Source: an uncultured Flavobacteriales bacterium
GTDB lineage: Bacteria; Bacteroidota; Bacteroidia; Flavobacteriales_F; PHOS-HE28
Length of the DNA: 64,000 bases
Reading direction: 5' to 3'
Assembly (NCBI GenBank): GCA_937872175.1
Contig: CALMPI010000017.1
Span: 62,001 to 126,000, forward strand
Shown: positions 13,718 through 32,347 of the stretch, in pieces
Position numbering within the stretch: the stretch's first letter is position 1
How the letters are laid out: each line of letters opens with the position of its first letter
Translations under genes and position numbers: made by a program
The notes under the pieces: generated by a model
Seen by the model: the letters and a program-made list of their open reading frames with translations, nothing else
Told to the model about the DNA's origin: nothing
The model's database searches: none

Positions 13718-14449
13718 ATGAACCCCACCGCCTACATCGTGGAGGATGAGCCGCAGGCCCGCGAGCTGATCCGCGCGCTGTTGACGAAGCGGCATCCGCG
13801 CTTCAAGCTGGTGGGGGAGGCGGGCGATGTGCATACCGCCGCGGATGCGATCCGCGCCGCCGCGCCGCAGCTGCTCTTTCTGGATGTGGACCTTGGCGGA
13901 CCGGACGGGTTCGACCTGTTGCGTCGCATCGCTCCGGTGGAGCCGCTGGTGATCTTCACCACGGGCAAGGTCGAGCATGCCGTGCAGGCCTTCGATGTGC
14001 GGGCGGTGGACTTTCTGGTGAAGCCCATCAGCGGTCCGCGCTTCGACGAGGCCGTGCTGCGCGCCTTGGAACTGTTGAAGCGCCGTGCGCCGCAGGTGCC
14101 ACCGGGCATGGTGGTGAGCGACCGCCGCATCGCGCTGCCCGACGCGCATGGGCTGCCGCTGCCGCCGCTGGACGAGCTGCTGTACTGCACCAGCGACAAC
14201 AACTACATGCTGGTGCACCGGCGCGGCGAGGCGCGTCCGCTGGTGGTGAGCCGCGGCATCGTGGCCTTCGACGAGGCGCTGCGCGACCAGGGCTTCGTGC
14301 GCATCCACCAGCGGCACCTGGTGAACCGCAAGCACATCCAGCGCTACATCAAGGGCGAGGGCGGCGGGGTGATCATGAGCGATGGCGCCAACCTGCCCGT
14401 GCGCCGCCGCCAGAAGGCCGACCTGATGGAGGCCCTGGAGCGGCTCTGA
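13718..14449 (+). CDS. LytTR-family response regulator, paralogue 1
   Basis: 243 residues. An N-terminal receiver domain has its phosphoacceptor at Asp56 (LLFLDVDLGG) and a conserved Lys in FLVKPI. A C-terminal LytTR DNA-binding domain (about 140-243) contains LLYCTSDNNY, GFVRIHQRHLVNRKHI and MSDGANLPV. It is closely related to the regulator at 27224, near-identical over the last 60 residues. LytTR proteins bind paired direct repeats as activators. No kinase gene adjoins it, so it may be served by the LytS-type kinase at 24816. It heads cassette 1 (beta-helix and EYWFD genes downstream). Confidence 0.88.
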   Translation: MNPTAYIVEDEPQARELIRALLTKRHPRFKLVGEAGDVHTAADAIRAAAPQLLFLDVDLGGPDGFDLLRRIAPVEPLVIFTTGKVEHAVQAFDVRAVDFLVKPISGPRFDEAVLRALELLKRRAPQVPPGMVVSDRRIALPDAHGLPLPPLDELLYCTSDNNYMLVHRRGEARPLVVSRGIVAFDEALRDQGFVRIHQRHLVNRKHIQRYIKGEGGGVIMSDGANLPVRRRQKADLMEALERL

Positions 14450-14457
14450 ACCGAATT

Positions 14458-14486
14458 CACGATCACATCCGCCACGAACACGATCA
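14458..14486 (+). promoter_or_regulatory. CACGATCA direct repeats with 21-bp period
   Basis: CACGATCA occurs at 14458 and 14479, with the same 21-bp period and GATC offset as the CCGGATCCTC pairs. A CACCTTCG -7-like box follows at 14513-14520. This is a possible LytTR site for the beta-helix gene; the sequence match is weaker than at 28004 and 31592. Confidence 0.3.
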
Positions 14487-14543
14487 TCCATCCGGCCTCG
14501 ACCGGCTCCAGCCACCTTCGGCCCACGAACAACACACGAACCC

Positions 14544-15623
14544 ATGAGAACAATCTTGACCCTGGCCCTTGCGCTCGGTACGAGCGTGCTGGCGAACGCC
14601 CAAGGCGTGATCACAAGGCAGCTGAACGGGCAATCCTTCTTCTACTATGCCGGAGAACTGCAGCAGGTCTTCGATGACGCGGAGACCTCCATCGGCCAGG
14701 ATACGGTGATCCTCGCCGGGGGGCAGTACGTGACGGCCACGGACCTCTTCATCCGCACCCCGATCGTGCTGATGGGCAGTGGGGTCTTCCCGGACAGCGT
14801 AACGGCCTATGGTGGGCGCACCACGATCTCCGGCAGCGGGTTTCGGCGGGTCAATATCATGGAAGATGCGGATGGTACCGAACTCCACGGGATCGCCTTT
14901 GTGGGGAGCATCGCCGTTCGATTGGGTACTGATGTGCCCACCTCTGACGCGGACGACGTGGTGATATCCCGCTGTGAGCTCGACGCGCTCATTCTTGGAT
15001 CGGGTTCGTTCGGGTCTTTGGTGAACGACCCTCTTGTGGAACAGTGCATCATCACCAGCTTGAATCTGAACCAATCCACGGATCCGGTGGTCCGCAATTG
15101 TGTGATCGCCGACCTGGATGGCGGCAGTGCCACCACCAACGCGCAGATCGAGCAGTGCATGTTCTTCAACTTCGCGCTGAACAGCAACATTGGCAACGAG
15201 TACACCAATTGCATCTTCATCCGCAACCAATCGAACGCCCTCGTGGCCAATGAAACCGATGCCATCTTCCGCAACAACCTCTTCGTGGGCCAGAGCGGAT
15301 TCTCGTTCAGCATCGGCCCCAATGCCACAGATGCGGGCGGGAATGTGAGCGACAGCCCGATCAATACCGTGAACGGCGCCTTTCCTCTGCTGACCTCGAC
15401 GAGCTACACGGTCTTCGACCACGGGAATGACTACACCCCGGCCGCACAGTGGTTGACCGCAGGCCTGGGCGGTACCCAGGTCGGGATCTACGGAGGAGCG
15501 CGTCCGTGGAAGGACGGTCTCCTGCCGTTCAACCCGCACTGGATCGAGCTGATCGCCCCGAGCACCACCGTGAACGGCACCTTGCAGGGAGTACAGGTCA
15601 AGGCCAGCGCACAACAGCCCTGA
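14544..15623 (+). CDS. Secreted right-handed beta-helix protein (cassette 1)
   Basis: 359 residues. A signal peptide (MRTILTLALALGTSVLANAQ) is followed by an N-terminal segment ending in DTVILAGGQYV. Short repeating strands follow (ISRCELDALIL, VEQCIITSLNL, VRNCVIADLDG, IEQCMFFNFAL), the pattern of a right-handed parallel beta-helix such as seen in pectate-lyase-like folds. No catalytic residues can be assigned and no C-terminal sorting domain is visible. The gene is 3 nt upstream of the EYWFD-repeat gene and is matched in order and architecture by 29537-30544. Confidence 0.7.
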   Translation: MRTILTLALALGTSVLANAQGVITRQLNGQSFFYYAGELQQVFDDAETSIGQDTVILAGGQYVTATDLFIRTPIVLMGSGVFPDSVTAYGGRTTISGSGFRRVNIMEDADGTELHGIAFVGSIAVRLGTDVPTSDADDVVISRCELDALILGSGSFGSLVNDPLVEQCIITSLNLNQSTDPVVRNCVIADLDGGSATTNAQIEQCMFFNFALNSNIGNEYTNCIFIRNQSNALVANETDAIFRNNLFVGQSGFSFSIGPNATDAGGNVSDSPINTVNGAFPLLTSTSYTVFDHGNDYTPAAQWLTAGLGGTQVGIYGGARPWKDGLLPFNPHWIELIAPSTTVNGTLQGVQVKASAQQP

Positions 15624-15626
15624 GCC

Positions 15627-16877
15627 ATGGGACGCGCGCTTCTGTTCGTGTTGCTGTTGGTCCCGACAGGGGCCAACGCACAGGTGCCGGACCTCTCCGG
15701 ATATGAGTACTGGTTCGATCAGGCGGACGCGGACAACGAACGGGTGCTGGTGCCCTTCACCTCGCCCGGCCAGACGGTGAGCTTGAGCAACGAGCAACTG
15801 GTGGCGGCGGCGCTCAGCGTCGGTCAGCATCGCCTGCATATCCGCCTGCGCGATCAAGCGGGCCGATGGAGCAGCACCTTGTTCCGCTCCTTCCTGATCC
15901 ACCGGTCAGGCCCCTTCCAGGTGATCTCCGGCGAGTACTGGTTCGACCAGGACGATGCGAACCGCCAGCCGTTCACCCTGACCCCGGGGGGTAGTGTGTC
16001 CATCACCCTGAACACGCCGGCCGCTGGGCTTTCCGTGGGTCAACACCGCGTTCATTACCGCTTGCGTGATGACCAGGGGGCGTGGAGCAGCGTGCTGGCG
16101 CGGAAGTTCCTGGTGACCGCCGAAGGCCCCCATGAGCTCGTGCTCCTGCGTTACTGGAGCGAACCCGTTCCACAGAACCCCAGCGACATGACCGAGGTGC
16201 CCATCACACCGGCCGTGCAGGTGCTGGACATCGTCGATGACGTGCTCTTCTGCAACTGGAGCAGCACGGGGCAGACCGATGTGTACTTCCAACTGCAGGA
16301 CAACCACGGGCAGTGGAGCTCGGTGATCACGCGCGGCATCGATGTGGATGCGGTGAGCGCGCCGCCTGCGGCGACCGCGGTGTCGGGCGCTGCCGTGGTG
16401 CTGGACAACAGCGCGCAGACCTACACGACCACCGCGGTGCCGGGCGCCTCATACTATGTATGGACCCTGCCTGCGGGCTGGTCGGGCACGAGCACGGGTA
16501 ACACGATCAACGTGACGACGGGTGCGCCCGGAGAGGACGGATGGGTGATCGTAACGGCCGGGAACGGATGTGGTATCGGGGAGCCCGACAGCGTCTTCGT
16601 CACCATCACCGGCACAGGCGTGCCGACGGATGGTACGACGGGCATCCTGCTCTTCCCCAACCCCTCCACCGGCCTTGTCACCATCGCGCTGCCGGATGCG
16701 GCGGGTGCGGAGCGCCTCCAGGTGTTCAACGCGCAGGGCGTCATGGTGCGCGACGAACGCCCGATCCCTGGCGATCGCCTGTCCCTTGATCTCATCGGAT
16801 CGGCCGAGGGCCTCTACACCGTCCGCCTGCACCGTCACGCGAAGATCACCGACCTGCGGGTGATGCTGCGGCGATGA
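15627..16877 (+). CDS. EYWFD-repeat T9SS type A sorted protein (cassette 1)
   Basis: 416 residues. After the signal peptide (MGRALLFVLLLVPTGANA) come three units of about 80 residues. Each starts near EYWFDQ (third unit RYWSEP) and ends near LRDQAGRWSS, LRDDQGAWSS or LQDNHGQWSS. An Ig-like segment (about 250-335) and a type A sorting domain (LFPNPSTGLVTIALP to LRR) follow. The same three-unit layout occurs in 30549-31547. I know such repeats from other Bacteroidota cargo proteins but not a function. Probably displayed at or released from the cell surface. Confidence 0.75.
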   Translation: MGRALLFVLLLVPTGANAQVPDLSGYEYWFDQADADNERVLVPFTSPGQTVSLSNEQLVAAALSVGQHRLHIRLRDQAGRWSSTLFRSFLIHRSGPFQVISGEYWFDQDDANRQPFTLTPGGSVSITLNTPAAGLSVGQHRVHYRLRDDQGAWSSVLARKFLVTAEGPHELVLLRYWSEPVPQNPSDMTEVPITPAVQVLDIVDDVLFCNWSSTGQTDVYFQLQDNHGQWSSVITRGIDVDAVSAPPAATAVSGAAVVLDNSAQTYTTTAVPGASYYVWTLPAGWSGTSTGNTINVTTGAPGEDGWVIVTAGNGCGIGEPDSVFVTITGTGVPTDGTTGILLFPNPSTGLVTIALPDAAGAERLQVFNAQGVMVRDERPIPGDRLSLDLIGSAEGLYTVRLHRHAKITDLRVMLRR

Positions 16878-16904
16878 AGAAGTTCCCGACCGGATGCACT
16901 CCCC

Positions 16905-18482
16905 ATGACCCGCCTACTGCCGCCCCTGCTCTTCGCCGCCGCGCTGGCCTGCCTCTTCCTGGGCTTCGCCGAACTGCGCACGGCCGAGGGTCCTGTGGGG
17001 CAGCAGAGCGGCTGGGACCGGCTGCTGGGCCGGGTGCCCGACCTGAGCGCGTGGGCCACCGGAGAAGCGGTGGTGGAGGACGTGGCGCGCGAAGCCGCTC
17101 CGGAGGTCGTGCCTCCGCCCGAAGCGGACGAAAGCCCCGCCGACCGGGCCCGGCGCCTGTTGCGTGAGCAGCGGTCCGGGACTTCACAAGATCCGGTCAC
17201 GGCTTCCCCGGACGTGTTGAATGAGGAGCCGGGTGTGCCGATGGACCCGTGGACCGCGGTAGCGGTGCTGTGCGCAGTGCTCGGCCTGGTGGGTGCGGCG
17301 CTTCGAGCGACCTGGGTGCCGGTGGCCTCTTCGGCGCTGGGCATCGTGGGCGCTGGTGCGCTGGCGATCGGCCATTGGCAATGGGCCACGCAGCTGGCGG
17401 AACAGGGATCGTCCGCGTTGCGCATCGACGCCGGGGTGGTGGAGGCCCTGCCGGCCACGGGCCTCTGGGCCGCCGTGGGCTTTCTGGTGGCCGCCGCCAT
17501 CGCCGGTCTTGTGCCCCTGGTGCTGCACGAACGTCCGTCCGCTACCTCACCTGCGCCACGCCCAACTTCCGGTCCACCGCCCGCCGCCCCACCGCCCCGC
17601 CCTGTTCCACACGCGGCGCCTGTGGCCCGTCCGCTGCCCGATCCGCCGAAGGCCCCTGCGACCTCCGCACCGCTGCGTGAGGCCAGCGGTCCCTCCACGA
17701 GCGCAGGCGCGCCCCCGCCGCCCGCCGCCCGTACCACTGTGCCCTCTTCGGAAGAAGCCCCTCGCCCTGCGTCCTCCGCGCCTCTGCGTGAGAGCAGACC
17801 CGAAGGTTCCTCTTCAGCTCGTACCTCTTCCTCCGTCCCCAATCCGCCTCGCATGGATTCTCCGCACGCCCCCCACAGCACACCGCCGCCGCACGTTGCC
17901 TCGCCGCTGGACCTCTTCACCGGCTTCGCACGGCCCTACTTCGCCCTGATCGACGGCGGGGCCCTCTTCCGCAAACCCTTCCGCATCCTGTACATGGTGC
18001 TGGCCGCTCTCAACCTGCTGGCCATCCTCGGGGTGTTGGCCGTGATGTTCAAGGGCGGTGTGGGCGGCATCCTCATCGGCCTGTTCGGCATCTTCGGGCT
18101 GTGGATCGGTTTCCAGTTGTGGTGGGACCGCAAGGACCGCATCAACACCTTTGTGAGCCCGGGGTCGGAGTTCGTGGCGCTGCCGGTGTTCGCGCATTTC
18201 TTCCAGACCTGTGGGGAGTGGTTCGGCACCCTGATGGCCATTGTGGGCGCGGGGGCCTCGTTGGTGATGGCGCTGCTGGGCCGAAGCGGTGGGCATGGCC
18301 GCAGCCCCCTGGACCTGTTCACGGCCGTGGCGGGTGATGCGCCGCTGGTGGGGTTGATCGCCAGCCCGCTGCTCGGCTTCCTGATCATCATCCTCACCCG
18401 CGCCATCGCCGAGCAGATCCGGGCGCTGGTGGCCGTGGCCAACAACACCAAGGCCATCGAGGTGAACACCCGCAAGGGCTGA
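16905..18482 (+). CDS. Multi-pass membrane protein with Pro/Ala-rich linker
   Basis: 525 residues. Hydrophobic segments lie near residues 3-21, 113-150 (two), 185-207, 360-408 (two), 442-460 and 482-505. A low-complexity Pro/Ala/Ser linker (about 208-345) separates the two membrane blocks and contains a repeated SAPLRE(A/S) motif. No enzyme motif is seen. It lies 27 nt after the EYWFD gene, so could be co-transcribed. Family unknown to me; a membrane protein role is the only safe call. Confidence 0.6.
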   Translation: MTRLLPPLLFAAALACLFLGFAELRTAEGPVGQQSGWDRLLGRVPDLSAWATGEAVVEDVAREAAPEVVPPPEADESPADRARRLLREQRSGTSQDPVTASPDVLNEEPGVPMDPWTAVAVLCAVLGLVGAALRATWVPVASSALGIVGAGALAIGHWQWATQLAEQGSSALRIDAGVVEALPATGLWAAVGFLVAAAIAGLVPLVLHERPSATSPAPRPTSGPPPAAPPPRPVPHAAPVARPLPDPPKAPATSAPLREASGPSTSAGAPPPPAARTTVPSSEEAPRPASSAPLRESRPEGSSSARTSSSVPNPPRMDSPHAPHSTPPPHVASPLDLFTGFARPYFALIDGGALFRKPFRILYMVLAALNLLAILGVLAVMFKGGVGGILIGLFGIFGLWIGFQLWWDRKDRINTFVSPGSEFVALPVFAHFFQTCGEWFGTLMAIVGAGASLVMALLGRSGGHGRSPLDLFTAVAGDAPLVGLIASPLLGFLIIILTRAIAEQIRALVAVANNTKAIEVNTRKG

Positions 18483-18741: not shown

Positions 18742-21700
18742 ATGTGGCGTTCCGCGTTCCTCCGCACCATTCTGGTGTTCGTGCTGCTCCTGGTCGGTGC
18801 GGCGAGGGAGGTGGAGGCGCAATGCAATGTGACGATCAACAACCCGGTGGTGGCGCCGTGTTTGGGCGATACACTGGCCCTTTCGGCATCGGCCAACGGC
18901 CAGAACGGACCGTTCATCTTCGCGTGGACCATCTCCGCTGGGTCCGGAGTGTTCTCCTCGACGAACACGTCCACCACGCTCTTCAGTCCCTCCACATCCG
19001 GAACGGTGACCGTGCAGGTGAGCGTAACGGACACCAATGGAACAGTTTGCGCCACGGACCTCCAGAGTTGGAATGTGACCAATGCCTCGGTGGCTTCGTT
19101 GACCTGCACGAACGCACCATCAGTGACCTTCGATGGCCTGACGACGTTCAGGAACTGTACGCCACAGAACCAGTTCCTGTTCAATTTCCAAGAGAACGGG
19201 TCCATCCTGGGCAACGCGCAGGTGACCATCGATTGGGGCGATGCGAGCCCGGTGTTCACCTCGAACGGAGCATGGGCACCGCAGGGGCACCTGTACTCGC
19301 CGCCGGGCCTGTACACCATCACCTACACGGTGGACGATGGCGTGTGCGAGGACACGCAGTTCTACAACGTGTTCCTTGGGGTGAATCCCGGTGCCCAGTT
19401 CGGCCGCCCCAACAACGCCCCGGTCTGTGACGGGGCCACGGTCGATTTCCTGATCACGCCGGACGCCACCAATGTGCCGGGCACCACATACACGGTGTAC
19501 TATGGTGATGGGTCGAGCGCGGTGTTCACCCACCCGCCGCCCGCCACGGTGAGCCACACGTACACGTCCAGTTCGTGCACCGGCGGGTCCTACACAGTGA
19601 CCTGTGGCGGCAGTCAGTTCCCGGTGGTGCCTGCGGCCAACACGTTCACCGCGTGCCTGTGCGTGGAGACCCCCTGCGGTGGGTTCCCGCCGACGGCGCC
19701 GAACATCATCGTGCACGAGGCGGCCGATGCCGGTTTCTCTGCTCCGACAACCGCATGCACCACGAGCGGGGTGACCTTCACCAGCACCAGCACCGGCGGC
19801 GTCATCGGGGCGCCCTGTGGCACGCCCTATCACACCTGGTCCATCACTGGTCCTGGCGCGTACACCCTTCAGTCGGGCAACCTGGGACCGTTCGGCAGCA
19901 CGGCCCTCTCGGTGCAGTTCCCGGTGCCCGGGGTGTACACCGTGTCATTGACGGCCGAGGGCGAGATCTGCCCTGCGGACACCTACGATCAGCAGCTCTG
20001 CATCGAGCCACCGTTGGTTCCCACCTTCGACACCACGCAGGTGGGCTTGTGCAACCCGGTGACGGTGAACCTGCAGAACACCACGGACCTGACGGACAAC
20101 TGCAGTGTACAGTGGGACTGGGTGGTGAGCGGCTCGGGCTTCTGCGGGGCCGCGGCCGCCTGGCAATGGACCAACGGCAATACCACGAGCGCATCGCCGA
20201 GCCTGCAGTTCACCGCGCCGGGCACCTACACCATCCGGCTGCGGGCATTGAACAGCTGCGGCTGGCAGCAGAGCGCGCCGGTCACCGTGACGGTGTTCGA
20301 TGACCCGCAGGTCCAGATGGGCGCCGCGCTCTCGCTCTGCGAAGGGGATGGGGCCAACCCCATAGCCACCTACACTACTTGCGGCACACCGATCACCAGC
20401 TACCTGTGGAGCATGCCCACGGCCACGCCCTCGAGCTCCAACCTGCCGCTCCCCGGTCCGGTGACGATCAACGCGAGCGGAACGATCTCCGTCACCGTGA
20501 CGAGCGTGTGTGGATCGGTGACGGCCAGCAACCCGGTCGTCGCTAACCCGGACCCACCGGCGAGCACGGTGCCGCCCGGGCCGATCTCCATCTGCCAGGG
20601 ACAGCCGCTCACCCTCGGCGCCACGAATGTGCCTGGTGCCACCTTCGTGTGGACCTCTCCCTTGGGCGTCACCTATGCCATGGATACGGTGGTGATCCCG
20701 GCCGCAGGACCGGCAGAGGACGGGCTGTGGACCGTGGTCGCGTTCCTGGGCGTGTGTGAGGGGCCGCCCGCCACAGTCGACGTGAACATCATCCTGGCAC
20801 CCGTGCTCGGCGTGGTGGCGAACCCATCGTCGATCTGCGTGGGTGACAGCAGCACGTTGGTCGCAGTGAACGCCACCAGCTACGCATGGTCCATCGGCAC
20901 CACGCCCGTGGGTACGGGCAGCACCTTGGTGGTGGCGCCGACAAGCACCACGATCTACACGGTGGAAGGTGATGTCGGTGGTTGCATCAGTGAGCTCGAT
21001 GTCACCGTCACCGTGAACCCGCTGCCCGTCGTGAACGCCGGCCCGGACCTCAGCCTCTGCGATCAACCCATGCCCGAAGTGCTGCAACCGGTGACCGCGG
21101 GCGGCACGTGGGGCGCACCGGTGGTGGGCGGCCAGTACACGCCCAATGGGCAGGGCGTGTTCGAGGTGGCCTACGGCATCACGGACCTCAATGGCTGCGT
21201 CAACAGCGACACCATCACCATCACCGTTGGTCCGCCTCCCGCGCCGGTCACCGCCGGTCCGGACACGCTCATCTGCCTCAACAGCGGCGACCTGCAATTG
21301 GTGGCCGACCAACCCGGCGGAACGTGGAGCAACAGCGTGTGGGTGAACAGCACGGGCGAGTTCACCCCGGGCGCGGTGTCCACGGAACTCGTGGTGTACA
21401 CGGTGGGCGTCGGCACCTGTGCGGTGGACGATACGGTGCAGGTGCAGGTGGTGCCCGGCGCGTCGGTGGATGCCGGGCTCGACGACCAGCTGTGCGTGAA
21501 CGACCCGGCGCTGCAGCTCGTGCCGAATCCGCCGGGCGGTACGTGGGGCGGCACTGGTGTGTCCCTTGCAGGTCTCTTCGATCCCGCACTGGCCCTGATC
21601 GGGCCCAACGTGCTCACCTACACCTTCCCTGATCCGAACGGCTGCATCGTGATCGACCAGCTCACCGTCCAAGTGGACCCGCTGCCTGTGCTCACCGTCA

Positions 21701-24700: not shown

Positions 24701-24819
24701 GGGACGGCATGGTGGCGGGCGTGCGCGCGCAGGACGGCGTGTACGTGTGGAAGCTGCGCTACAGCGACGGCAACAACAACGAGCTGGAGAAGGTGGGGCA
24801 CGTGACCTTGCTGCGATGA
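18742..24819 (+). CDS. Giant PKD/Ig-repeat adhesin with T9SS type B sorting domain
   Basis: 2025 residues. A signal peptide (MWRSAFLRTILVFVLLLVGA) starts at the ATG favoured by the -7 box. The body is repeats: PKD-type domains (IDWGDASP, WDFGDLSPP, WSFGDGSFDSI, HTYANAGTYNV) and a run of six Cys-GGTW modules between about residues 765 and 1210 (GGTWGA, GGTWSN, GGTWGG, GGTWSG, GGDWSG, GGLWDR). The end is a type B sorting domain (VPNAFTVNGDGNNELFF, FNRWGEVIH, DGVYVWKLRY). It is probably a long surface adhesin exported by T9SS. Its TGA overlaps the ATG of a histidine kinase gene. Confidence 0.85.
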   Translation: MWRSAFLRTILVFVLLLVGAAREVEAQCNVTINNPVVAPCLGDTLALSASANGQNGPFIFAWTISAGSGVFSSTNTSTTLFSPSTSGTVTVQVSVTDTNGTVCATDLQSWNVTNASVASLTCTNAPSVTFDGLTTFRNCTPQNQFLFNFQENGSILGNAQVTIDWGDASPVFTSNGAWAPQGHLYSPPGLYTITYTVDDGVCEDTQFYNVFLGVNPGAQFGRPNNAPVCDGATVDFLITPDATNVPGTTYTVYYGDGSSAVFTHPPPATVSHTYTSSSCTGGSYTVTCGGSQFPVVPAANTFTACLCVETPCGGFPPTAPNIIVHEAADAGFSAPTTACTTSGVTFTSTSTGGVIGAPCGTPYHTWSITGPGAYTLQSGNLGPFGSTALSVQFPVPGVYTVSLTAEGEICPADTYDQQLCIEPPLVPTFDTTQVGLCNPVTVNLQNTTDLTDNCSVQWDWVVSGSGFCGAAAAWQWTNGNTTSASPSLQFTAPGTYTIRLRALNSCGWQQSAPVTVTVFDDPQVQMGAALSLCEGDGANPIATYTTCGTPITSYLWSMPTATPSSSNLPLPGPVTINASGTISVTVTSVCGSVTASNPVVANPDPPASTVPPGPISICQGQPLTLGATNVPGATFVWTSPLGVTYAMDTVVIPAAGPAEDGLWTVVAFLGVCEGPPATVDVNIILAPVLGVVANPSSICVGDSSTLVAVNATSYAWSIGTTPVGTGSTLVVAPTSTTIYTVEGDVGGCISELDVTVTVNPLPVVNAGPDLSLCDQPMPEVLQPVTAGGTWGAPVVGGQYTPNGQGVFEVAYGITDLNGCVNSDTITITVGPPPAPVTAGPDTLICLNSGDLQLVADQPGGTWSNSVWVNSTGEFTPGAVSTELVVYTVGVGTCAVDDTVQVQVVPGASVDAGLDDQLCVNDPALQLVPNPPGGTWGGTGVSLAGLFDPALALIGPNVLTYTFPDPNGCIVIDQLTVQVDPLPVLTVTSDTTFCVSPIAQQITHAPIGGTWSGPNVDPVTGQYTPVATTPIGSPDVLVYTYTDGNGCTNTASVQVTVIDPPFVAFAGNDTAACVGDAPFPLVGDPPGGDWSGSFVLPGYAFDPAVVGTYTLTYTVGTASCETQDQVDITVDPLPPSFAGAPLTVCVYDPVQTLQGTPAGGLWDRPNTFDPDTMQLGPTTFCYTYTDPTTDCDSTHCTTVTVEPIPVADFSLPDSACVNTLVNFTNITACGCTWTWDFGDLSPPSTQQDPQHAYAAVGPYTIQLVATSTAGCSDTITHPLVITEAPTAQLTWTVADSCGDGLVQVTNDLVMANTTHTWWVNGVVVSNAVQPVSFALPGPLLADTLYTLVYEQANFCGADRDTLLVTLYPLPVASFGTDQLIYCLADTVFIGNDSYGLVDSAFWQLGDGTVSTNGSPTWFHQYVQDSTWTITLEVYNECGADTASWSVTVLPNQVTAFFSTDTVIGCAPLTSTFTNFSVGDTASIWYFGDANNTTSISTNTGFTYTDPGTYTVQLVALGCGVDTATQVIEVLALPVVDALSDPTVCLGDAVSFSASGAGLVGLLWSFGDGSFDSIPNPTHTYANAGTYNVILTVVSNITLCPSADTIQVEVVEAPVLALSVADTVFCVPFDLSLSSAGTTGSNLSYVWTLGGDTVSYSPNPLPQTITATGGQLITVTVEDLLTGCRDSTALTVVGLETPVSGLLLDPYDPCGDPAQLVATSTSSPPQATLAWSVNGQLVGQGPVLATAYSTPGTHTLALVAELPGPCADTATTTFTLLERPLAGFDTGPACLGQAIPITDTSSNAVAWWWYFNGAFVGNDPGGSGIVPSFLGNDTIALAVTSPDGCRDSTWVVVDVNAPPLAELLAEAQADCETVLLTAAFAPNSTYVWYVNGQPYSEERSPPYYLPPDATDDVEFTLVVTNTDSCSSTDMATVYPPTCVNVPNAFTVNGDGNNELFFPVVYPAVRFREFRIFNRWGEVIHECAGTVVPWDGMVAGVRAQDGVYVWKLRYSDGNNNELEKVGHVTLLR

Positions 24820-27134
24820 GGAGGGGGGCCTTGGTGCGATGGATGTTCGCCGGGGCGCTTTCGACCGCTGCGGTGGCATGCTCGATCACCGATCGATCGC
24901 GTGAGCCAGGGTCGACCGATCAGAAAAAAAACGCGGTCGATCCCGAACGCCTCGTTCTGGCCGACCCACGGGCCGCCTTCGCCCTGATCGACTCCCTGGA
25001 TCGCGAGGCGATGCGCATGTCGGACACGGACGCGCTTATCCTCGCACGGCTTTGGAGGGCGCGGTGTTCGGTGCTGAACGACCGGTCCGCCGAAGCATGT
25101 GATGCGTACCGCGCGGCGCTGGACCACGGTGCACGGGTACCACAGCGGACCGCTGTTGAGGTCGAGCACGCGAAGGCGTTGACCCGAGCGGGACGGTTCG
25201 CGGAGGCGGAGGCCCGTTTGGCTGAACTGGACACGGCGGCACGGAACAGGAACAACAGCATTGCGCACGTCGACGCGCTCAACGCACACGGTTCGCTCCT
25301 GCTTGCCCGGGCCAGGGCTGATGCCGGGGCGGCGCGGTACGCACAGGCCCTGGCGCTCGCCGACCGGATGAAGGTGGACACGGTGACACGGATCGCACTG
25401 CTGCTCGACCAGTGCGCAGGATACGCCTCCGCGACGCAGTACGATAGCCTGCTGCACCTTGCCTATGCGGTGCGCGGCCTTGCGCGGGCCACGCACGACA
25501 CACTGGCGGAGCTCACCGCCGAGCTCGACATCGGCCTGGTGCACGCGAACACGGCGCGGGACTATGCGGTGGCGATGGACCACACCACACGCGCCGCCGT
25601 GCTGGCCCGCGCCATGGGGATCGAGCGGCACCGGTTGCTCGCCGAGCACCGGCTCGCGTACATCGGGTGGGATATCCTGAACGACCAGGAGGTGCATGCG
25701 CGCTGGACGAGAACGCTGCAGGAGGCAGAGCTCGGAGGGTTCGATCAGATCGCCGTGCAGTCGGGCATCGGGTTGGGCATGTTCCTCATGAGCCGGGACA
25801 GTCTGCGGCTATCCGCATGGGGAGTGCCCTACGCGGTGCGGTTCGACACGGCGCGCGCATTGATCGCCATGGCCACGGACCGAGCGGAGCGTCTCGGCAG
25901 TGAGGAACTGCTCAATGATTGTCTGAGCGCAGCCGCTTCGGTGGAGAACTACGCTGGTGATCCGCGCGCCTCGATCCGGATCCAGGAGCACCAGCTGGCC
26001 CTTGCACGAGCAGGTGGACGTGTCCGACAACAGGTCAACGCGTACCAGGGGATCGGCTCCAACCTGATCCAGCTGCAGGAATGGCGGAAGGCCATTGCCA
26101 TGCTGGACAGTGGATCGGTGCTGGCCCGGGCGCATGGCATGCTGCAATCCATGAACACCCTGCTGTACCGGCTCTTCTACTGCCATGAGCGGTTGGGTGA
26201 TCATGCCACGGCGCTGAACTATGTGCTGCAGCGCGACACCCTGCGCGACCGCATCGGCGGGGTTGATATGGCCGCGCGGATGGGAGAGCAGCTGGCCCGC
26301 CACGCCGCACAGCTGGACAGCCTCGCCCACGTTCAGCAGCTCGCTCTGGAGCGCGCCGAGGCCCAGGCCCGCATCGACCGCCAACGCACGCGCACCGTGG
26401 CCGCCTTGGGCGGAGGAGCCGTGTTGCTCATGGGTGGCGCTGTGGCGTTCGCGATGGACCGCCGCCGCCGGCAGGCCCGCTTCGCCCAGCAGGCCGCCGA
26501 GCTGGAGCGCGAGGCCGCCCGCTTCGAGACGCAGGCGCTGCGCAGCCAGATGAACCCGCACTTCATCTTCAACGCGCTCAACTCCATCGCCGGCTATGTG
26601 CAGGGCAACGACCCCGACCGTGCGCAGAGCTTCCTGGCCCGCTTCGCCAAGCTGATGCGGGCGGTGCTGGAGAACAGCCGCTTCGCCGAGGTGCCGCTGG
26701 CCCGGGACCTGGAGGTGCTGCGCGCCTACATGGAGCTGGAGCGCGTGCGTGCCCAGGGGAAGTTCAGCTACACCATCGCCGTGGCCCCCGACCTGGACGC
26801 GGAGGCCGTGCTGGTGCCGCCGCTGCTGGCGCAGCCCTTCGTGGAGAACGCCATCTGGCACGGGGTGGCGGGCAAGCAGGGCGATGGGCACATCGCGGTG
26901 CACGTGGAACAGGCCGACGGTCAATTGCGCATCCGGGTGGAGGACGACGGCGTGGGCCGTGCGCAGCAGCGCAGCGCGGTGAGCAAGGAGAAGACCAGCC
27001 TGGGCACGGCCATCACGCGCAGCCGGCTGGACCTGGTGGAGAAGCAGAAGGGCGCCCCGGCGGGCTTCCGCTACGTGGAGGTGCCGGTGGGCACGCGCGT
27101 GGAGATCCACCTGCCGCTGGAAATGGCGGCGTAA
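24816..27134 (+). CDS. LytS/YehU-type sensor histidine kinase with TPR-like sensor region
   Basis: 772 residues. The start overlaps the adhesin stop (ATGA). The N-terminus has a lipobox-like AVACS (Cys22). A helical TPR-like region (about 60-500) precedes one membrane segment (about 528-548) and a short coiled coil. The His_kinase domain has QMNPHFIFNALNSI with phosphoacceptor His582, and a HATPase domain follows with PFVENAIWHG and a DDGVGRAQQ G-box. This is the kinase class that partners LytTR regulators; one lies 89 nt downstream. A combined lipoprotein signal and inner-membrane helix is unusual. The signal sensed is unknown. Confidence 0.87.
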   Translation: MRRGALVRWMFAGALSTAAVACSITDRSREPGSTDQKKNAVDPERLVLADPRAAFALIDSLDREAMRMSDTDALILARLWRARCSVLNDRSAEACDAYRAALDHGARVPQRTAVEVEHAKALTRAGRFAEAEARLAELDTAARNRNNSIAHVDALNAHGSLLLARARADAGAARYAQALALADRMKVDTVTRIALLLDQCAGYASATQYDSLLHLAYAVRGLARATHDTLAELTAELDIGLVHANTARDYAVAMDHTTRAAVLARAMGIERHRLLAEHRLAYIGWDILNDQEVHARWTRTLQEAELGGFDQIAVQSGIGLGMFLMSRDSLRLSAWGVPYAVRFDTARALIAMATDRAERLGSEELLNDCLSAAASVENYAGDPRASIRIQEHQLALARAGGRVRQQVNAYQGIGSNLIQLQEWRKAIAMLDSGSVLARAHGMLQSMNTLLYRLFYCHERLGDHATALNYVLQRDTLRDRIGGVDMAARMGEQLARHAAQLDSLAHVQQLALERAEAQARIDRQRTRTVAALGGGAVLLMGGAVAFAMDRRRRQARFAQQAAELEREAARFETQALRSQMNPHFIFNALNSIAGYVQGNDPDRAQSFLARFAKLMRAVLENSRFAEVPLARDLEVLRAYMELERVRAQGKFSYTIAVAPDLDAEAVLVPPLLAQPFVENAIWHGVAGKQGDGHIAVHVEQADGQLRIRVEDDGVGRAQQRSAVSKEKTSLGTAITRSRLDLVEKQKGAPAGFRYVEVPVGTRVEIHLPLEMAA

Positions 27135-27187: not shown

Positions 27188-27195
27188 TAGCTTCG
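27188..27195 (+). promoter_or_regulatory. -7 box (TAGCTTCG) for the LytTR regulator
   Basis: One mismatch to TAnnTTTG, 28 nt before ATG 27224. It gives the regulator its own promoter besides read-through from the kinase. Confidence 0.4.
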
Positions 27196-27223
27196 GATCC
27201 TCAGCCGCCGGAACCGCCATCCC

Positions 27224-27979
27224 ATGTCCAGCAACGCCCCCACCGCCGTCATCATTGACGATGAGGCCATCTGCATCACGGCGCTCCAGGCCATGCTCAC
27301 GCGCCGGCATCCGGAGCTGGTGCTGGTGGGCACCGCCGCGGACGTGCCTTCCGGCGTGACGTTGGTGAAGGACAAGCGGCCGGACCTGCTCTTCCTGGAC
27401 GTGGAACTGGGCGACATGACGGGCTTCGACCTGTTGAAGGCCATCGCCCCCCTGCGGCCGCAGGTGATCTTCACCACGGCCCACGAGAGCTACGCCGTGA
27501 AGGCGATCCGCTTCAACGCGCTCGACTACCTGTTGAAGCCCATCGACCCCGAGGAGCTGGACGACGCGGTGAACAAGGCCGTGCGCGAGCGGGGCGGTCA
27601 TGCCGCTTCACCGGACCGCATCGCGCCGCTGCTGGGCACCCTGATGAGCGACCGCCAGCTGGCGCTGCCCGATTCGGGCGGCCTGGTGGTGGTGCATCTG
27701 GACGACATCCTGTACTGCACCAGCGACAACAACTACACTTCGGTGCACGTGCGGGGCGACAAGAAGCCGACGGTGGTGAGCCGTCCGCTGAGCGAGTTCG
27801 ACGCCTTCCTCGGCGGGCAGGGCTTCGTGCGCATCCACCAGAGCCACCTGATCAACCGCAAGCACATCCGCCGCTATGTGAAGGGTGAGGGTGGCGAGGT
27901 GATCATGAGCGATGGCGCCAACCTGCCCGTGAGCCGCCGGCAGAAGGCCGAGCTGATGGAGGTGTTGGAGCGCTTGTAG
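27224..27979 (+). CDS. LytTR-family response regulator, paralogue 2
   Basis: 251 residues. The receiver domain has Asp59 (LLFLDVELGDMTGFDLL) and the switch Lys in YLLKPI. The LytTR domain (about 150-251) has ILYCTSDNNYTSVHV and GFVRIHQSHLINRKHIRRY, and ends VSRRQKAELMEVLERL. It is the likely cognate partner of the LytS-type kinase just upstream. The strong match to the regulator at 13718 in the DNA-binding half suggests the two recognise similar operators. The promoter of the next gene carries such a candidate operator. Confidence 0.9.
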   Translation: MSSNAPTAVIIDDEAICITALQAMLTRRHPELVLVGTAADVPSGVTLVKDKRPDLLFLDVELGDMTGFDLLKAIAPLRPQVIFTTAHESYAVKAIRFNALDYLLKPIDPEELDDAVNKAVRERGGHAASPDRIAPLLGTLMSDRQLALPDSGGLVVVHLDDILYCTSDNNYTSVHVRGDKKPTVVSRPLSEFDAFLGGQGFVRIHQSHLINRKHIRRYVKGEGGEVIMSDGANLPVSRRQKAELMEVLERL

Positions 27980-28003
27980 GGCGGGCTGAACAGACGTCCT
28001 CCG

Positions 28004-28034
28004 CCGGATCCTCGGTGCGCACCGCCGGATCCTC
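28004..28034 (+). promoter_or_regulatory. Candidate LytTR operator: CCGGATCCTC pair, 21-bp period
   Basis: CCGGATCCTC occurs at 28004 and 28025. Exactly 34 nt later comes TTTTG (28069), then CCGTCAC; the whole spacing is repeated before 31703. Two direct repeats about two helical turns apart are the known LytTR binding geometry (for example AgrA, AlgR-type sites). Confidence 0.6.
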
Positions 28035-28065
28035 GATCCCCATGGGCCGGGCCCTGCGGTCACTG

Positions 28066-28073: not shown

Positions 28074-28112
28074 GTCCGTCACCGCACGATCAACCCGTCA
28101 ACCCGACCCGCC

Positions 28113-28916
28113 ATGAACACCATCGCCCGACCCATCGGCACCCGCCTCGCCTGTGTCCTTTCGATCCTGTGGCTGCTGGGCAGCACCTCGGTCCTTGCGC
28201 AGGCCGAAGGCCTGGATGCGCACATCCGGCAGCTGGACCGCCTGATCGCCCAGGCCGCGGCCGAGCAGGACTACGCCGCCGCCGCCGGCCTCCAACGCGA
28301 CCGCGCCAACTGGGTCGCCCTGCAGGAGGCCATCGCGCACAACGATGCCGCCCGCATCCTGTCCCTGCAACAGGCGCTGGCCAACCCATATGTGTACACC
28401 GCCGCCGGCGCCGCACAGCGCCCGGCGGCGCCCGCACCCACCACCGGCGGGCCCGAGTTCCTGCACCAGGTGTACACCCAGGAGGCCGATGGCAGCTACC
28501 GGCAGCTGGAGAAGGAGGAGGCCAGCTCCGCGTCCTCTGGCGGTGGTTATGGCGGTTTCGGCGGTCGGGTGTCCTCGAAGAAGATCCCCGGCGACCGTTC
28601 CAACGTGCGCTTCGCGGCCGGCGCGCTCCCGCGGTTCGTGGTGAGGACCTACCCGGGCCAGGACCCCTCCGACCTCATCGAGCTGGTGCGCTTCGAGGTG
28701 CGTGGCGCCCGCAAGGACCGCTACGTGGACATGAGCAAGAGCAGCCACGCCTTCTACCACCACAGCAGCAGCGAGGTCACCGACAACCGCGTCCGCATCA
28801 CGTTCACCCACCTCGGCGACCAGGTGTACGAGATCGGGACGGACGCACCGCTGCCCGCCGGCGAATACGCCTTCATGAACGGGCAGAAGGTATTCGCCTT
28901 TGGCGTGAACGAGTGA
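28113..28916 (+). CDS. Secreted hypothetical protein, LytTR-module regulated
   Basis: 267 residues. It has a signal peptide (ending SVLAQ), then a helical segment (LDRLIAQAAAEQDYAAAAGL) resembling a UVR-type paired helix. A Gly/Ser-rich linker (SSASSGGGYGGFGG) leads to a beta-rich C-terminal domain of about 95 residues (LPRFVVRTYPGQDPSDLIEL, then EYAFMNGQKVFAFGVNE). I recognise the last part only as a recurrent Bacteroidota domain without an assigned role. The start is set by the signal peptide; an upstream TTG would fall inside the -7 region. Its promoter carries the paired CCGGATCCTC motif. Confidence 0.65.
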   Translation: MNTIARPIGTRLACVLSILWLLGSTSVLAQAEGLDAHIRQLDRLIAQAAAEQDYAAAAGLQRDRANWVALQEAIAHNDAARILSLQQALANPYVYTAAGAAQRPAAPAPTTGGPEFLHQVYTQEADGSYRQLEKEEASSASSGGGYGGFGGRVSSKKIPGDRSNVRFAAGALPRFVVRTYPGQDPSDLIELVRFEVRGARKDRYVDMSKSSHAFYHHSSSEVTDNRVRITFTHLGDQVYEIGTDAPLPAGEYAFMNGQKVFAFGVNE

Positions 28917-28940
28917 GGAGAGGAACGCATGGATCCATCC

Positions 28941-28963
28941 GGAAGCCCGATGGCCGGGCTTCC
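28941..28963 (+). terminator. Hairpin after 28113 gene
   Basis: GGAAGCCC and GGGCTTCC form an 8-bp stem with a 7-nt loop, 25 nt after the stop codon. There is no T-tract. Confidence 0.35.
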
Positions 28964-28983
28964 ACCAACACCGACCACGAACC

Positions 28984-29532
28984 ATGAGCACACTTCGACA
29001 CCTCGCCAGGAGCGCTGCCTTCCCGTTCACGGCATCGTCCTCCACCGCACAGCATCAGCGTGTGGGTCGGCCGGAGCGTGCCACCTCCGGATCGTGGGAC
29101 GCGCTCGGGCGATACACCCATGACCGCGACGCCCAAGGCCGCGTCACGGAGCTCAGCATGGCCCGCAAGGACCCTTGGAGCGGTGATCGGATCCCCTTCG
29201 CGCGGTTGAACATCACGTACACCGCCCGCGGGCACGAAGCCTCCTGGACCTGCCGGATCACTTATGATGCCGCACCGACCGGCATGCCGGGACCGACGGG
29301 GGCGCTCGTGCTGCTCGCCCATCCCGACCCGGCGACCGACCCGGTGATGCTGCCCGACCTCGGCGCAGGCGTCGTGGTGGACCCGATCGCCCCGGATGGA
29401 CGGATGATCACCGGCAAGCGCACGGAGGCGCGGGGTGTGCTGGATATCCGCGACCTTGCGCCCGGCCACTATGTGGCCAGCTTCGTCACAACGACCGGCT
29501 CATCCGCCACTACCACCCTCCTCAAACACTGA
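28984..29532 (+). CDS. Hypothetical protein with T9SS type A-like tail, possibly degenerate
   Basis: 182 residues. The middle (HDRDAQGRVTEL, ARLNITYTARG) resembles the YD-like repeats of secreted Bacteroidota proteins. The last 35 residues (DIRDLAPGHYVASFVTTTG) look like the end of a type A sorting domain. There is no convincing signal peptide, so the protein as read could not reach T9SS. It may be a truncated relic or the start may be elsewhere. The stop is 4 nt before the beta-helix gene, which suggests it is still part of that operon. Confidence 0.5.
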   Translation: MSTLRHLARSAAFPFTASSSTAQHQRVGRPERATSGSWDALGRYTHDRDAQGRVTELSMARKDPWSGDRIPFARLNITYTARGHEASWTCRITYDAAPTGMPGPTGALVLLAHPDPATDPVMLPDLGAGVVVDPIAPDGRMITGKRTEARGVLDIRDLAPGHYVASFVTTTGSSATTTLLKH

Positions 29533-29536
29533 TCCC

Positions 29537-30544
29537 ATGCGACCTGTCCTGCACCTCCTCTTCCTGCTGCTGTGTCCGGCCATGCTCCATGCCCGGATCC
29601 TGCGGGTGAACAACAATGCCGTGCTCGCCACCACCTGCATCACCTGCTACCCGTCGCTTCAGAACGCCTTGTCGGCAGCGCAGGATGGTGACACGATCCA
29701 TATGGAAGGTTCCAGCGCCGCTTACGGTTCCGGCACCGTCACGGTGCCGAACCTCGTCATCATCGGTCCGGGCTACAAGCTGTCCGGCGCGGGAAGCAAC
29801 CCGGACCTGCAGGCCAATACCTGGCCCGCCACCATCGCTGGCACCTTGACGTTCGGGGCCGGCTCGCAGGGAGGCACGGTCATGGGGATCCGGTTCGCGG
29901 GCACCAACGCCGCGTTGGACATCACGTCCACATCGAACATCACCGTGCGCAGGAACTTCTTCGAGATCACCGAGATCACCCTGGCCGGCACCACCACCAA
30001 CGTGCTGATCGCGGAGAACTATGCCTACCGCATCACCCAGAACGTCAACGCACAGACGATCAACAACCTCACCGTGCGCAACAATGTGTTCACCAACACC
30101 CTTTCGCTCAACGATAGCGGCGACCAGATGGCGGGGCTGGTGGTGGTGCACAACACCTTCACCCATGCCGGCACACAGGCCGTGCGCGATGCCGAAGTGG
30201 CGTACAACGTGTTCGTTCAAGGCACGATCGCCGGCAGCAACAACACCGTGCATGACAACCTGGTCACGCAGGTGATCCCCGGCTTCCCGGACAACCTCGT
30301 AGTGCCCATGGCCAACGTGGGGATCCCCGTGGTGGGTGCTTCGGACGACGCGCAATGGGACATCCCTGCCCATCCGGTCTATGCACCGGGCGGAGCGGAT
30401 GCCTATGGCATTTTCAGCGGCATCAGCCCCTACCGCCTGAGCGGCATCCCAGGCACACCTACGATCTATGCGCTCAGCTCCACGGTGAACGCGTTGCCGG
30501 GCGGCCAGGTGCAGGTGACCCTGAGCACACGTGCCAACCCCTGA
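29537..30544 (+). CDS. Secreted right-handed beta-helix protein (cassette 2)
   Basis: 335 residues. The signal peptide (MRPVLHLLFLLLCPAMLHA) is followed by YPSLQNALSAAQDGDTIHME, the usual entry of right-handed beta-helix proteins. Repeating strands follow (ITVRRNFFEITEI, NLTVRNNVFTNTL, LVVVHNTFTHAG). No catalytic site is evident. It is the positional and architectural counterpart of 14544-15623 and sits 4 nt upstream of the EYWFD-repeat gene. No sorting domain is visible, so release or retention in the periplasm is possible. Confidence 0.7.
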   Translation: MRPVLHLLFLLLCPAMLHARILRVNNNAVLATTCITCYPSLQNALSAAQDGDTIHMEGSSAAYGSGTVTVPNLVIIGPGYKLSGAGSNPDLQANTWPATIAGTLTFGAGSQGGTVMGIRFAGTNAALDITSTSNITVRRNFFEITEITLAGTTTNVLIAENYAYRITQNVNAQTINNLTVRNNVFTNTLSLNDSGDQMAGLVVVHNTFTHAGTQAVRDAEVAYNVFVQGTIAGSNNTVHDNLVTQVIPGFPDNLVVPMANVGIPVVGASDDAQWDIPAHPVYAPGGADAYGIFSGISPYRLSGIPGTPTIYALSSTVNALPGGQVQVTLSTRANP

Positions 30545-30548
30545 TCGC

Positions 30549-31547
30549 ATGCGGCGACTCCTGTTCGTTCTTGCGCTCGCGCACCCGCCATGCGATGCCT
30601 TCGCGCAGCTCGTCGTCCACGGGGAATATTGGATCGACGAGGACCTCGGCTTCGGTCAGAACCAGTCGTTCCTCGTTCCGGCCACCGCGGATACGACCCT
30701 GACGTTGAACCTGGACCTCAGCGGTCGCCCACCCGGCCACCACCTGCTCGGGTTGCGTACGCGCGATGCCGGGGGACGATGGGGCCATACCCAGTTCACG
30801 CCGGTGCTGATCACCGAGGCGCCGAGCGTTCCGGACCTGGACCGCACCGAGGCGTTCCTCAACAACGACCCTGGCTTCGGTGCAGGAGAGGTGCTGTGGG
30901 CGGGCGGTGTGCAGGATGTGGCGGACACCATGGTGCTGCCCGACCTGTCCACGGCGCTCATCGGCCACAACACGCTTTTCCTGCGCACGCGTTCGGCCGA
31001 TGGCCATTGGGGGCATACGAACACCGTCCCTGTTCTGATCATCCCGGCGCCCCCCACTGCAGCGGTGGATGCCGTGGAGGCTTTCGTGCTCGACGGTGGC
31101 CCCGACCCCGGCTTCGGCCAGGCCCAGCCGTTCACCGGCTTTATCGCGGCGGTCGACCTGGTCGACACGCTCACCTCCGACGCGCCCTTCGCGCTCACCA
31201 CCGGGCAGCGCTTGGCGCTCCGCAGCCACGACGATCAAGGCCGATGGGGGCACACCAATTTCATCGATTCGATCATCGTGGAGTTCCACAACGACCAGGG
31301 GTCGCTATGGAACGCGGTGGGCTTATCCGTGCATCCGAACCCGTTCACGGAGACCCTCACCCTGCGGTCCGATGATCCGCGGCCCGTGCGGGTCGTGCTC
31401 TACGGGCCGACGGGCGGGAAGGTGTTCGACCGGATGCTGACCGGAGACTCCTCCATCGACTTGCATGGGATGGCCAGTGGCGTGTACACCGCGTTCTTCT
31501 GGCAGGAGGCCGCCCTGCTGCATCGGGTGACCCTCATCAAGCGATGA
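30549..31547 (+). CDS. EYWFD-repeat T9SS type A sorted protein (cassette 2)
   Basis: 332 residues. The signal peptide is MRRLLFVLALAHPPCDAFA. Three repeat units begin at EYWIDEDLGFGQ, EAFLNNDPGFGAG and EAFVLDGGPDPGFG, and end at LRTRDAGGRWGH, LRTRSADGHWGH and LRSHDDQGRWGH. A type A sorting domain (VHPNPFTETLTL to LIKR) ends the protein. The three-unit plan equals that of 15627-16877, though the intervening Ig-like segment is missing. The start 4 nt after the beta-helix stop indicates one operon. Function unknown. Confidence 0.75.
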   Translation: MRRLLFVLALAHPPCDAFAQLVVHGEYWIDEDLGFGQNQSFLVPATADTTLTLNLDLSGRPPGHHLLGLRTRDAGGRWGHTQFTPVLITEAPSVPDLDRTEAFLNNDPGFGAGEVLWAGGVQDVADTMVLPDLSTALIGHNTLFLRTRSADGHWGHTNTVPVLIIPAPPTAAVDAVEAFVLDGGPDPGFGQAQPFTGFIAAVDLVDTLTSDAPFALTTGQRLALRSHDDQGRWGHTNFIDSIIVEFHNDQGSLWNAVGLSVHPNPFTETLTLRSDDPRPVRVVLYGPTGGKVFDRMLTGDSSIDLHGMASGVYTAFFWQEAALLHRVTLIKR

Positions 31548-31591
31548 AGGGCCCTCGGCCACAGGGGCCAAGGTGACGCTTCGAGGTCCCA

Positions 31592-31622
31592 CCGGATCCT
31601 CACCACCCGCCGCCGGATCCTC
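31592..31622 (+). promoter_or_regulatory. Candidate LytTR operator: CCGGATCCTC pair, 21-bp period
   Basis: CCGGATCCTC at 31592 and 31613, then 34 nt to TTTTG at 31657. Spacing is identical to the module at 28004. Confidence 0.6.
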
Positions 31623-31653
31623 AGCCGGGCAGGGAATGCGCGTACTGCCAGGG

Positions 31654-31661
31654 GAGTTTTG
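31654..31661 (+). promoter_or_regulatory. -7 box (GAGTTTTG), shared promoter module
   Basis: Same deviation from TAnnTTTG as the twin at 28066; both continue into CCGTCAC. The ATG lies 41 nt downstream. Confidence 0.5.
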
Positions 31662-31702
31662 ACCCGTCACGAACGACGAACCACACGAACACCCTGGTCA
31701 TC

Positions 31703-32347
31703 ATGAACACGCAAGCAACCTTCCGGCTCCTTCTCATCGGGTTCACCCTTTGCCTGGCCATCAACCGCGTGCAGGCGCAGGACGCGGATCCCGCACCGGC
31801 CTTCGGCAAAGGCAACGTCGCCCTCAACGCCGGCATCGGCCTGGGCGGTGTGCGCCCCGGCTACTACGGCAGCTACAACGACAGTTACAGCAACAGCCCC
31901 ACGTTCTGCCTCAGCGCGGAGGGGGGTGTGGCCAAGGCAGGCCCGGGCGTCATCGGTGTGGGCGGCTTCCTGTCCCACCGCTGGACGCGTCACGTGGATG
32001 AGGACAGCTACGGCAGCGTCACGTACACCTTCGACGAGCGCTGGACCCGCACCACCATCGGTGCGCGGGTGGCCTGGCATCTCAGCGAGTACGTCCCGGC
32101 CCACAATCTGGACCTCTACGCCGGCGTGATGCTCGGATACGCCATTGTGGGCTACCGCAACGAAAGCACCCGCACGGTGAACGGCGAGACCACCACCTAT
32201 GCCGACACCAAGCCGCCCCGCAAGGGCTACGGCGATTGGAGCACCTTCGTGGGCGCCCGCTACCTCTTCACCCGCAACGTGGGCGCCTATGCCGAACTGG
32301 GCTACGGTGTCAGCATCATCAACCTCGGCGCGACCTTCCGTTTCTGA
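31703..32347 (+). CDS. Outer-membrane beta-barrel protein
   Basis: 214 residues. A signal peptide (ending RVQAQ) is followed by alternating amphipathic strands (NVALNAGIGLGGVRPG, YAGVMLGYAIVGYRN, GAYAELGYGVSIINLG) and a terminal aromatic pair region ending FRF, as in small OmpA/OmpW-like barrels. It is preceded by the same operator and promoter module as 28113, so both are likely under one LytTR regulator. A strong hairpin follows the stop. Confidence 0.75.
   Translation: MNTQATFRLLLIGFTLCLAINRVQAQDADPAPAFGKGNVALNAGIGLGGVRPGYYGSYNDSYSNSPTFCLSAEGGVAKAGPGVIGVGGFLSHRWTRHVDEDSYGSVTYTFDERWTRTTIGARVAWHLSEYVPAHNLDLYAGVMLGYAIVGYRNESTRTVNGETTTYADTKPPRKGYGDWSTFVGARYLFTRNVGAYAELGYGVSIINLGATFRF

Follow-up and report, generated by a model that had tools for sequence, protein, structure and literature searches.

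A conserved pair of beta-helix and EYWFD-repeat genes in Bacteroidota and its predicted assembly into a two-subunit surface module

Adhesins of the SprB-SprF type are among the described surface proteins that depend on the type IX secretion system (T9SS), while in surface fibres such as the Mfa fimbriae, domains are completed by strands of another subunit (PMC4789730). Systems of the LytS/LytTR type, in turn, are characterized by paired 9-bp direct repeats lying 11-13 bp apart (PMC6193735). Here, we describe a locus that resembles each of these in part. It consists of a gene for a secreted protein with a right-handed beta-helix (BH), directly followed by a gene for a protein with EYWFD repeats and a T9SS C-terminal domain (CTD) (EY), and occurs twice in a window of 64,000 nucleotides (nt), the whole stretch of DNA analysed, from an uncultured Flavobacteriales bacterium (GenBank assembly GCA_937872175.1, contig CALMPI010000017.1, positions 62,001 to 126,000). 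Both cassettes, BH1-EY1 and BH2-EY2, follow a response regulator (RR1 and RR2) with a receiver (REC) and a LytTR domain.

EY resembles SprB-type adhesins in its T9SS CTD, which in Cyclobacteriaceae can be of type B (CHU_C), with a PorP/SprF gene following; however, its conserved neighbour is an upstream beta-helix protein devoid of a CTD and not a shuttle. The tails of EY1 and EY2 match the type A family only, and no PorP/SprF gene was found beside the cassettes of the window. As in the Mfa fimbriae, a domain is predicted to be completed by the strands of another subunit, but here a beta-helix protein would lend two strands of its C-terminal tail, docking a head onto a stalk rather than polymerizing a fibre. 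With LytS/LytTR systems, the locus shares a kinase, REC-LytTR regulators and 9-bp direct repeats 12 bp apart, whereas its repeat unit is GGATCCTYR instead of the usual ACC-CTTA type, one site has 14 bp between the repeats, and the targets are T9SS surface genes. Finally, the immunoglobulin (Ig)-like modules of GhpA, the grappling-hook protein of Aureispira, are the best Foldseek matches to our BH-EY fusion model, but the fold is all they have in common: GhpA is a giant single chain and implies no beta-helix partner. The open-access literature that we searched contained neither the motif EYFFDTDPG nor a paper linking type IX secretion with a beta-helix and LytTR, or with a parallel beta-helix adhesin operon.

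We propose, with a probability of roughly 0.55 for the reading as a whole, that BH and EY form a two-subunit cell-surface module, a head on a stalk joined by a split domain and switched locally by LytTR regulators. EY would be exported by Sec, cross the outer membrane through the T9SS via its CTD and be anchored there, with its repeats forming a stalk of short fibronectin/Ig-like sandwiches. BH, lacking a T9SS signal itself, would likewise be exported by Sec and would dock onto EY because its tail supplies strands A and B of a fibronectin/Ig-like domain, of which EY repeat 1 supplies the remaining strands. The beta-helix would thereby be mounted on the distal tip of the stalk, opposite the anchor; BH would have reached the surface as a passenger of EY or joined it there. 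The head would most likely bind glycans or surfaces, with tandem diverged cassettes providing several heads per cell, and the LytS-type kinase and LytTR regulators would switch both cassettes and a barrel gene via 21- or 23-bp direct repeats about 100 nt upstream. If BH does travel as such a docked passenger, the pair would constitute a T9SS substrate of two subunits, spread across the phylum, and a novel means of putting a head on a surface stalk. The proposal also suggests a role for two little-characterized protein families whose members range from Flavobacteriaceae to Hymenobacter, Bacteroidales and Ignavibacteriales, and it defines a candidate LytTR regulon in Bacteroidota that is concrete enough to be tested.

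Distribution and inheritance of the BH-EY pair

A search of the organism's own 4.3-Mb genome for EY and BH yielded four clusters, in which all four EY genes have a BH gene upstream and to which all five BH genes belong. Outside the window, one cluster (L025, contig C30) holds a third BH-EY pair with a LytS-type kinase and a LytTR regulator downstream of it, and the other (L024, contig C42) two BH genes and an EY gene beside a gene for an extracytoplasmic function (ECF) sigma factor (L024 10937-12561). Within the genus, most of the fourteen relatives searched show the BH-EY order, often in tandem and mostly with gaps of 3, 4 or 6 nt.

The same arrangement recurs throughout the phylum. Among 247 Bacteroidota genomes sampled without bias, a search with just the EY repeat matched 25, from about ten families. 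In the neighbourhoods retrieved, every EY gene with a readable upstream gene was directly preceded by BH on the same strand; the sole exception, L126, is a weak partial match rather than a clear EY. For a scan of named genomes, we used a six-row EY alignment, the phylum-wide one being too diverse for this purpose. It returned at least 538 relatives, of which 79 loci were kept, and the following figures refer to the matches listed. These loci span Cyclobacteriaceae, Hymenobacter, Chitinophagaceae, Flavobacteriaceae, Bacteroidales, Ignavibacteriales and others. By gene calls, BH lies directly upstream in 75 of the 81 testable EY genes, with a median gap of 21 nt; for the other six, it was recovered by a six-frame search, in one case frameshifted and at a gap of several hundred nt. 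Conversely, a genome found through BH alone (G277) has EY next door at both of its BH loci, and there was no BH match among the 313 genes of random control regions. Up to four consecutive BH genes may precede a single EY gene (L151, L174). A plasmid search gave a single weak match, in Hymenobacter, and a BH-BH-EY cluster on a contig labelled as a Rickettsiales bacterium (L185) probably belongs to a misbinned Bacteroidota contig.

Presence and divergence of the two genes are likewise coupled. Of the 247 genomes, 21 have strong BH matches over the full length, and 20 of these 21 are also EY-positive (Fisher p 1.6e-24). In the genus, the distances between BH proteins correlate with those between their EY partners at a Mantel r of 0.80 (24 cassettes), a value reached by none of 2000 within-genome partner shuffles; phylum-wide, the correlation is 0.44 (94 pairs). 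As judged from these sequence distances, the co-divergence shows inheritance as a unit and not contact, since linkage alone could produce it.

A preliminary description of this DNA, drawn from the window alone, had suggested that the two proteins work as a pair and had named their separation in other genomes as a refutation. Instead, BH and EY are neighbours wherever EY can be examined, co-occur and diverge together. On the sequence level, the pair is thus real, old and phylum-wide, its generality far exceeds what is visible from the window, and the two genes very likely act together. By contrast, the implied tandem duplication of the cassettes was not borne out, and the description of their LytTR domains as near-identical was overstated: these are 69% identical between RR1 and RR2, the receivers 47%. 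EY1 and EY2 share about 25% identity (E 9e-13), and BH1 and BH2 are barely detectable to each other by BLASTP (E 0.014, shuffle z 5.9). As the closest relatives of each cassette are found in other genomes and not in the sister cassette, we reject a recent duplication and regard the two as old paralogues.

Predicted docking of BH onto EY and its alternatives

By sequence, the T9SS CTD is carried by EY and not by BH. EY proteins open with mostly two to five repeats of about 70 residues each, and those checked end in a T9SS domain of type A (Por_Secre_tail) or type B (CHU_C), as in a Cyclobacteriaceae EY (L098, 7.9e-22). EY1 and EY2 do have exactly three repeats each, as previously noted, but this is no rule for the family; likewise, their assignment to the T9SS holds for EY1, with a tail of 24.8 bits to TIGR04183 (cut-off 23), while the tail of EY2 (18.7 bits) stays below the cut-off. 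Residues 697-777 of the fusion model described below match the PorZ CTD. In several Cyclobacteriaceae (L099, L101, L102, L103), a PorP/SprF-like gene often adjoins the BH-EY pair.

Inspection of the BH proteins shows a signal peptide. They are predicted to form a right-handed beta-helix and lack a sorting domain; family searches found no T9SS CTD in BH1, BH2 or two distant BH proteins. The beta-helix identity, already recognized in the preliminary description, is supported by strong matches of BH1 and BH2 to one family profile and by the AlphaFold2 (AF2) fusion model, in which the helix of BH1 aligns with known right-handed beta-helices at VIA-align Z scores of 17-18. BH proteins end in a conserved tail, some 38 residues long, in which one proline (P331 in BH1) is invariant; for the tail of BH1, the fusion model predicts two strands only.

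To which fold these strands may belong is suggested by two models. Since BH1 and EY1 are in frame, the stop codon between them could be read through in silico, giving a single chain that was modelled by AF2 with 54 alignment rows; unpaired EY rows had aligned to BH and were dropped. This model reached a predicted local distance difference test score (pLDDT) of 85 and a predicted template modelling score (pTM) of 0.67, with ordered tail strands (about 87). In the second model, restricted to the tail and the first 165 residues of EY1 and aligned with read-through chains of 33 relatives from several families, the tail strands persist without the helix, at a pLDDT of about 81. Chains with two fibronectin-like modules are among its best Foldseek matches. 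Single fibronectin/Ig-like domains, each some 95 residues long, can be aligned to model residues 6-133 with about 90-98 residues at 2.5-3.5 A (for 5x83, 92 residues at 2.8 A and Z 8.6). As EY repeat 1 spans only about 70 of the aligned residues, the tail must supply the remainder in this model. The models thus yield a specific, testable prediction: strands one and two of a fibronectin-like sandwich come from the tail, and EY repeat 1 provides the others. Distances in the tail, but not in the helix, follow those of EY repeat 1 slightly more closely than those of repeat 2 (bootstrap difference 0.009-0.078), which helps this reading only a little. Stop read-through as a biological mechanism is unsupported: out-of-frame gaps, of 4 nt and others, occur with the same pairing.

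A natural variant bears on the role of the tail. In G161 (L255 1501-3468), a genome without EY, the same beta-helix has no tail and is fused to LamG and a T9SS CTD of its own, so that tail plus EY and an own CTD look interchangeable in sequence.

Several points weigh against the head-on-stalk module. The modelled chain is an artificial read-through with unmapped contacts, and tethering may favour the nearest partner; the Z scores of 8-9 for the fragment model are modest, and the pTM is 0.61-0.67. Clear A and B strands are missing from repeats 2 and 3 as well, which means that repeat 1 is not the only incomplete one, and the co-divergence can be explained by linkage, as stated above. In G357 (L278 1-5035), two apparently tail-less BH genes end early ('WRR') before an EY gene whose product has an N-terminal alpha/beta-hydrolase, an arrangement that may be a sequence error. 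One proposed operator departs from the published LytTR spacing, with 14 instead of 11-13 bp between its repeats, and a limited search of the open-access literature found no CTD-less, non-covalent T9SS passenger. The most far-reaching part of the proposal, that BH crosses the outer membrane through the T9SS while docked by the two-gene split domain onto its CTD-bearing partner, is a possibility we put forward tentatively. The conservation of a CTD-less protein tied to a CTD-bearing one suggests that the T9SS may also carry complexes, and some Bacteroidota surface proteins could then escape CTD searches.

The two genes might also be co-transcribed and functionally linked without their products binding each other, with BH periplasmic or released, EY an independent surface protein and the operon simply kept. 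The 3-6 nt gaps in the genus are those of a tight operon, and linkage could account for the co-divergence. Yet the pairing is retained across about ten families despite variable gaps, AF2 assembles tail and EY, the G161 variant exchanges tail and EY for its own CTD, and the conserved tail would be left without a role; we therefore consider such an arrangement unlikely. Still less probable is a reading of BH as an enzyme that modifies polysaccharides, similar to a lyase or epimerase, and that EY holds at the surface. The modelled BH1 has the right-handed parallel beta-helix of such enzymes, and its nearest structural matches include the mannuronan epimerase AlgE4, a PL6 lyase and tailspike glycan enzymes. 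However, none of the BH proteins searched (BH1, BH2 and the distant ones) reached a Pfam enzyme family, and among 64 BH proteins, conservation falls mainly on Gly, Pro and Asn-ladder residues, while the few conserved charged positions (D53, K72, R143, D312) are scattered along the sequence; a divergent active site is conceivable. That the cassettes are variable recognition or antagonism modules exchanged between strains, as tandem BH-EY-BH-EY arrays and the strong divergence of paralogues within a genome might suggest, is very improbable, for BH and EY partners are not reshuffled between classes and we noticed no gene for a toxin, an immunity protein or a recombination function next to the pairs, albeit without a systematic search. 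Within the proposed head-on-stalk module, a surface location of BH and a binding function of its head are inferred.

Proposed LytTR control and other regulators

Paired direct repeats of the form GGATCCTY start at positions 13620, 28006 and 31594 of the window, each 98-109 nt upstream of a start codon. These are the only three matches in the whole 4.3-Mb genome, with none on the reverse strand and none for a reversed control pattern; by chance, 0.00 would be expected per window. Because the pattern was read off the promoters of the window, a scan of 45 genomes of the genus constitutes an independent test, and it gave nine matches in five genomes and none with the control. In four of these loci (L241, L292, L293, L295), a LytTR gene of the same kind immediately precedes the site, and BH, X2 (a secreted protein gene that follows RR2) or X2-BH-EY comes after it; L293 has a second site 109 nt upstream of its barrel homologue, as in the window, and L294 is a short contig with a site but no called regulator. 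Two of the three sites in the window conform to the published layout of 9-bp repeats with 12 bp in between. The palindrome GGATCC within the repeat is unusual beside published LytTR repeats.

Together with the REC-LytTR regulators and their His_kinase partner, as expected of a LytTR two-component system, these sites make LytTR control of both cassettes well supported by sequence in this window, with direct contact between regulators and repeats being putative. The regulon is not built around BH-EY, as two members of the genus, G422 and G423, retain the adhesin, regulator, operator and X2 although no BH-EY pair lies near them.

Two-component control, proposed earlier for the pair as such, thus applies here but does not extend to the phylum. 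Some regulator is enriched near the pair: one lies within 4 kb in 14 of 20 fully flanked clusters, compared with 34% of random windows (binomial p about 0.001), and in 17 of 25 clusters of the named set (p about 0.0005), although the clades in these tests are not independent. The types vary, however, from LuxR-type regulators with kinases or alone to LytTR and, in the genus of the window, ECF, and sometimes none is adjacent. LytTR is consequently rejected as a general partner of BH-EY, and its control of the pair is local. In L024, L043 and L057, an ECF sigma gene adjoins the cassette in place of a two-component regulator.

Features of the window

The gene order, coordinates and LytTR regulators given in the preliminary description agree with the open reading frames (ORFs) and with Pfam and NCBIfam matches (REC and LytTR; His_kinase and HATPase for the LytS-type kinase ahead of RR2). 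It had missed two further BH-EY pairs in the genome, and the paired direct repeats upstream of the cassettes and the barrel gene. BH1 starts 94 nt after RR1, and the BH-EY gaps are 3 nt in the first cassette and 4 nt in the second. All features are listed in Table 1.

Table 1. Genes and putative regulatory sites of the two cassettes and their surroundings (window coordinates)
Feature	Position	Strand	Evidence or remark
Putative LytTR operator 1, GGATCCTTG-14 bp-GGATCCTTG	13620..13651	+	98 nt upstream of RR1 start
RR1, response regulator (REC + LytTR)	13718..14449	+	PF00072 1.6e-17, PF04397 9.5e-12
BH1, secreted right-handed beta-helix protein without T9SS tail	14544..15623	+	Family profile match; AF2 fold, VIA-align Z 17-18 to beta-helices
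Final 38 codons of BH1, C-terminal tail with two predicted strands and a proposed role in docking	15507..15620	+	
EY1, signal peptide, three EYWFD repeats, PKD-like domain, T9SS type A CTD	15627..16877	+	
EY1 repeat 1, proposed acceptor half of split fibronectin/Ig-like domain	15690..15899	+	
Membrane protein without Pfam match, possibly co-transcribed	16905..18482	+	ORF only; starts 27 nt past EY1
Giant PKD-repeat protein with type B T9SS CTD (CHU_C)	18742..24819	+	
LytS-type histidine kinase	24816..27134	+	PF06580 2.7e-22, PF02518 7.3e-07
Single operator half-site GGATCCTCA	27195..27203	+	Upstream of RR2
RR2, response regulator (REC + LytTR)	27224..27979	+	PF00072 5.6e-21, PF04397 4.4e-19
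Putative LytTR operator 2, GGATCCTCG-12 bp-GGATCCTCG	28006..28035	+	107 nt ahead of X2; equivalent site in G422, G423, G439
X2, secreted protein kept after RR2-type regulators	28113..28916	+	Homologues in L292, L293, L295
Y2, small secreted protein, C-terminus resembling a T9SS tail	28984..29532	+	Sequence inspection
BH2, beta-helix protein with conserved tail, no T9SS CTD	29537..30544	+	
EY2, three EYWFD repeats, weak T9SS CTD match	30549..31547	+	
Putative LytTR operator 3, GGATCCTCA-12 bp-GGATCCTCA	31594..31623	+	109 nt upstream of barrel gene; same spacing in G423
Barrel gene, predicted outer-membrane barrel-like protein, in proposed regulon	31703..32347	+	Operator; conserved homologue in L293

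Y2 has no significant family match in Pfam or NCBIfam, and the barrel gene product none in Pfam. A gene similar to that of the giant PKD-repeat protein adjoins the kinase/regulator locus in G422 and G423 as well.

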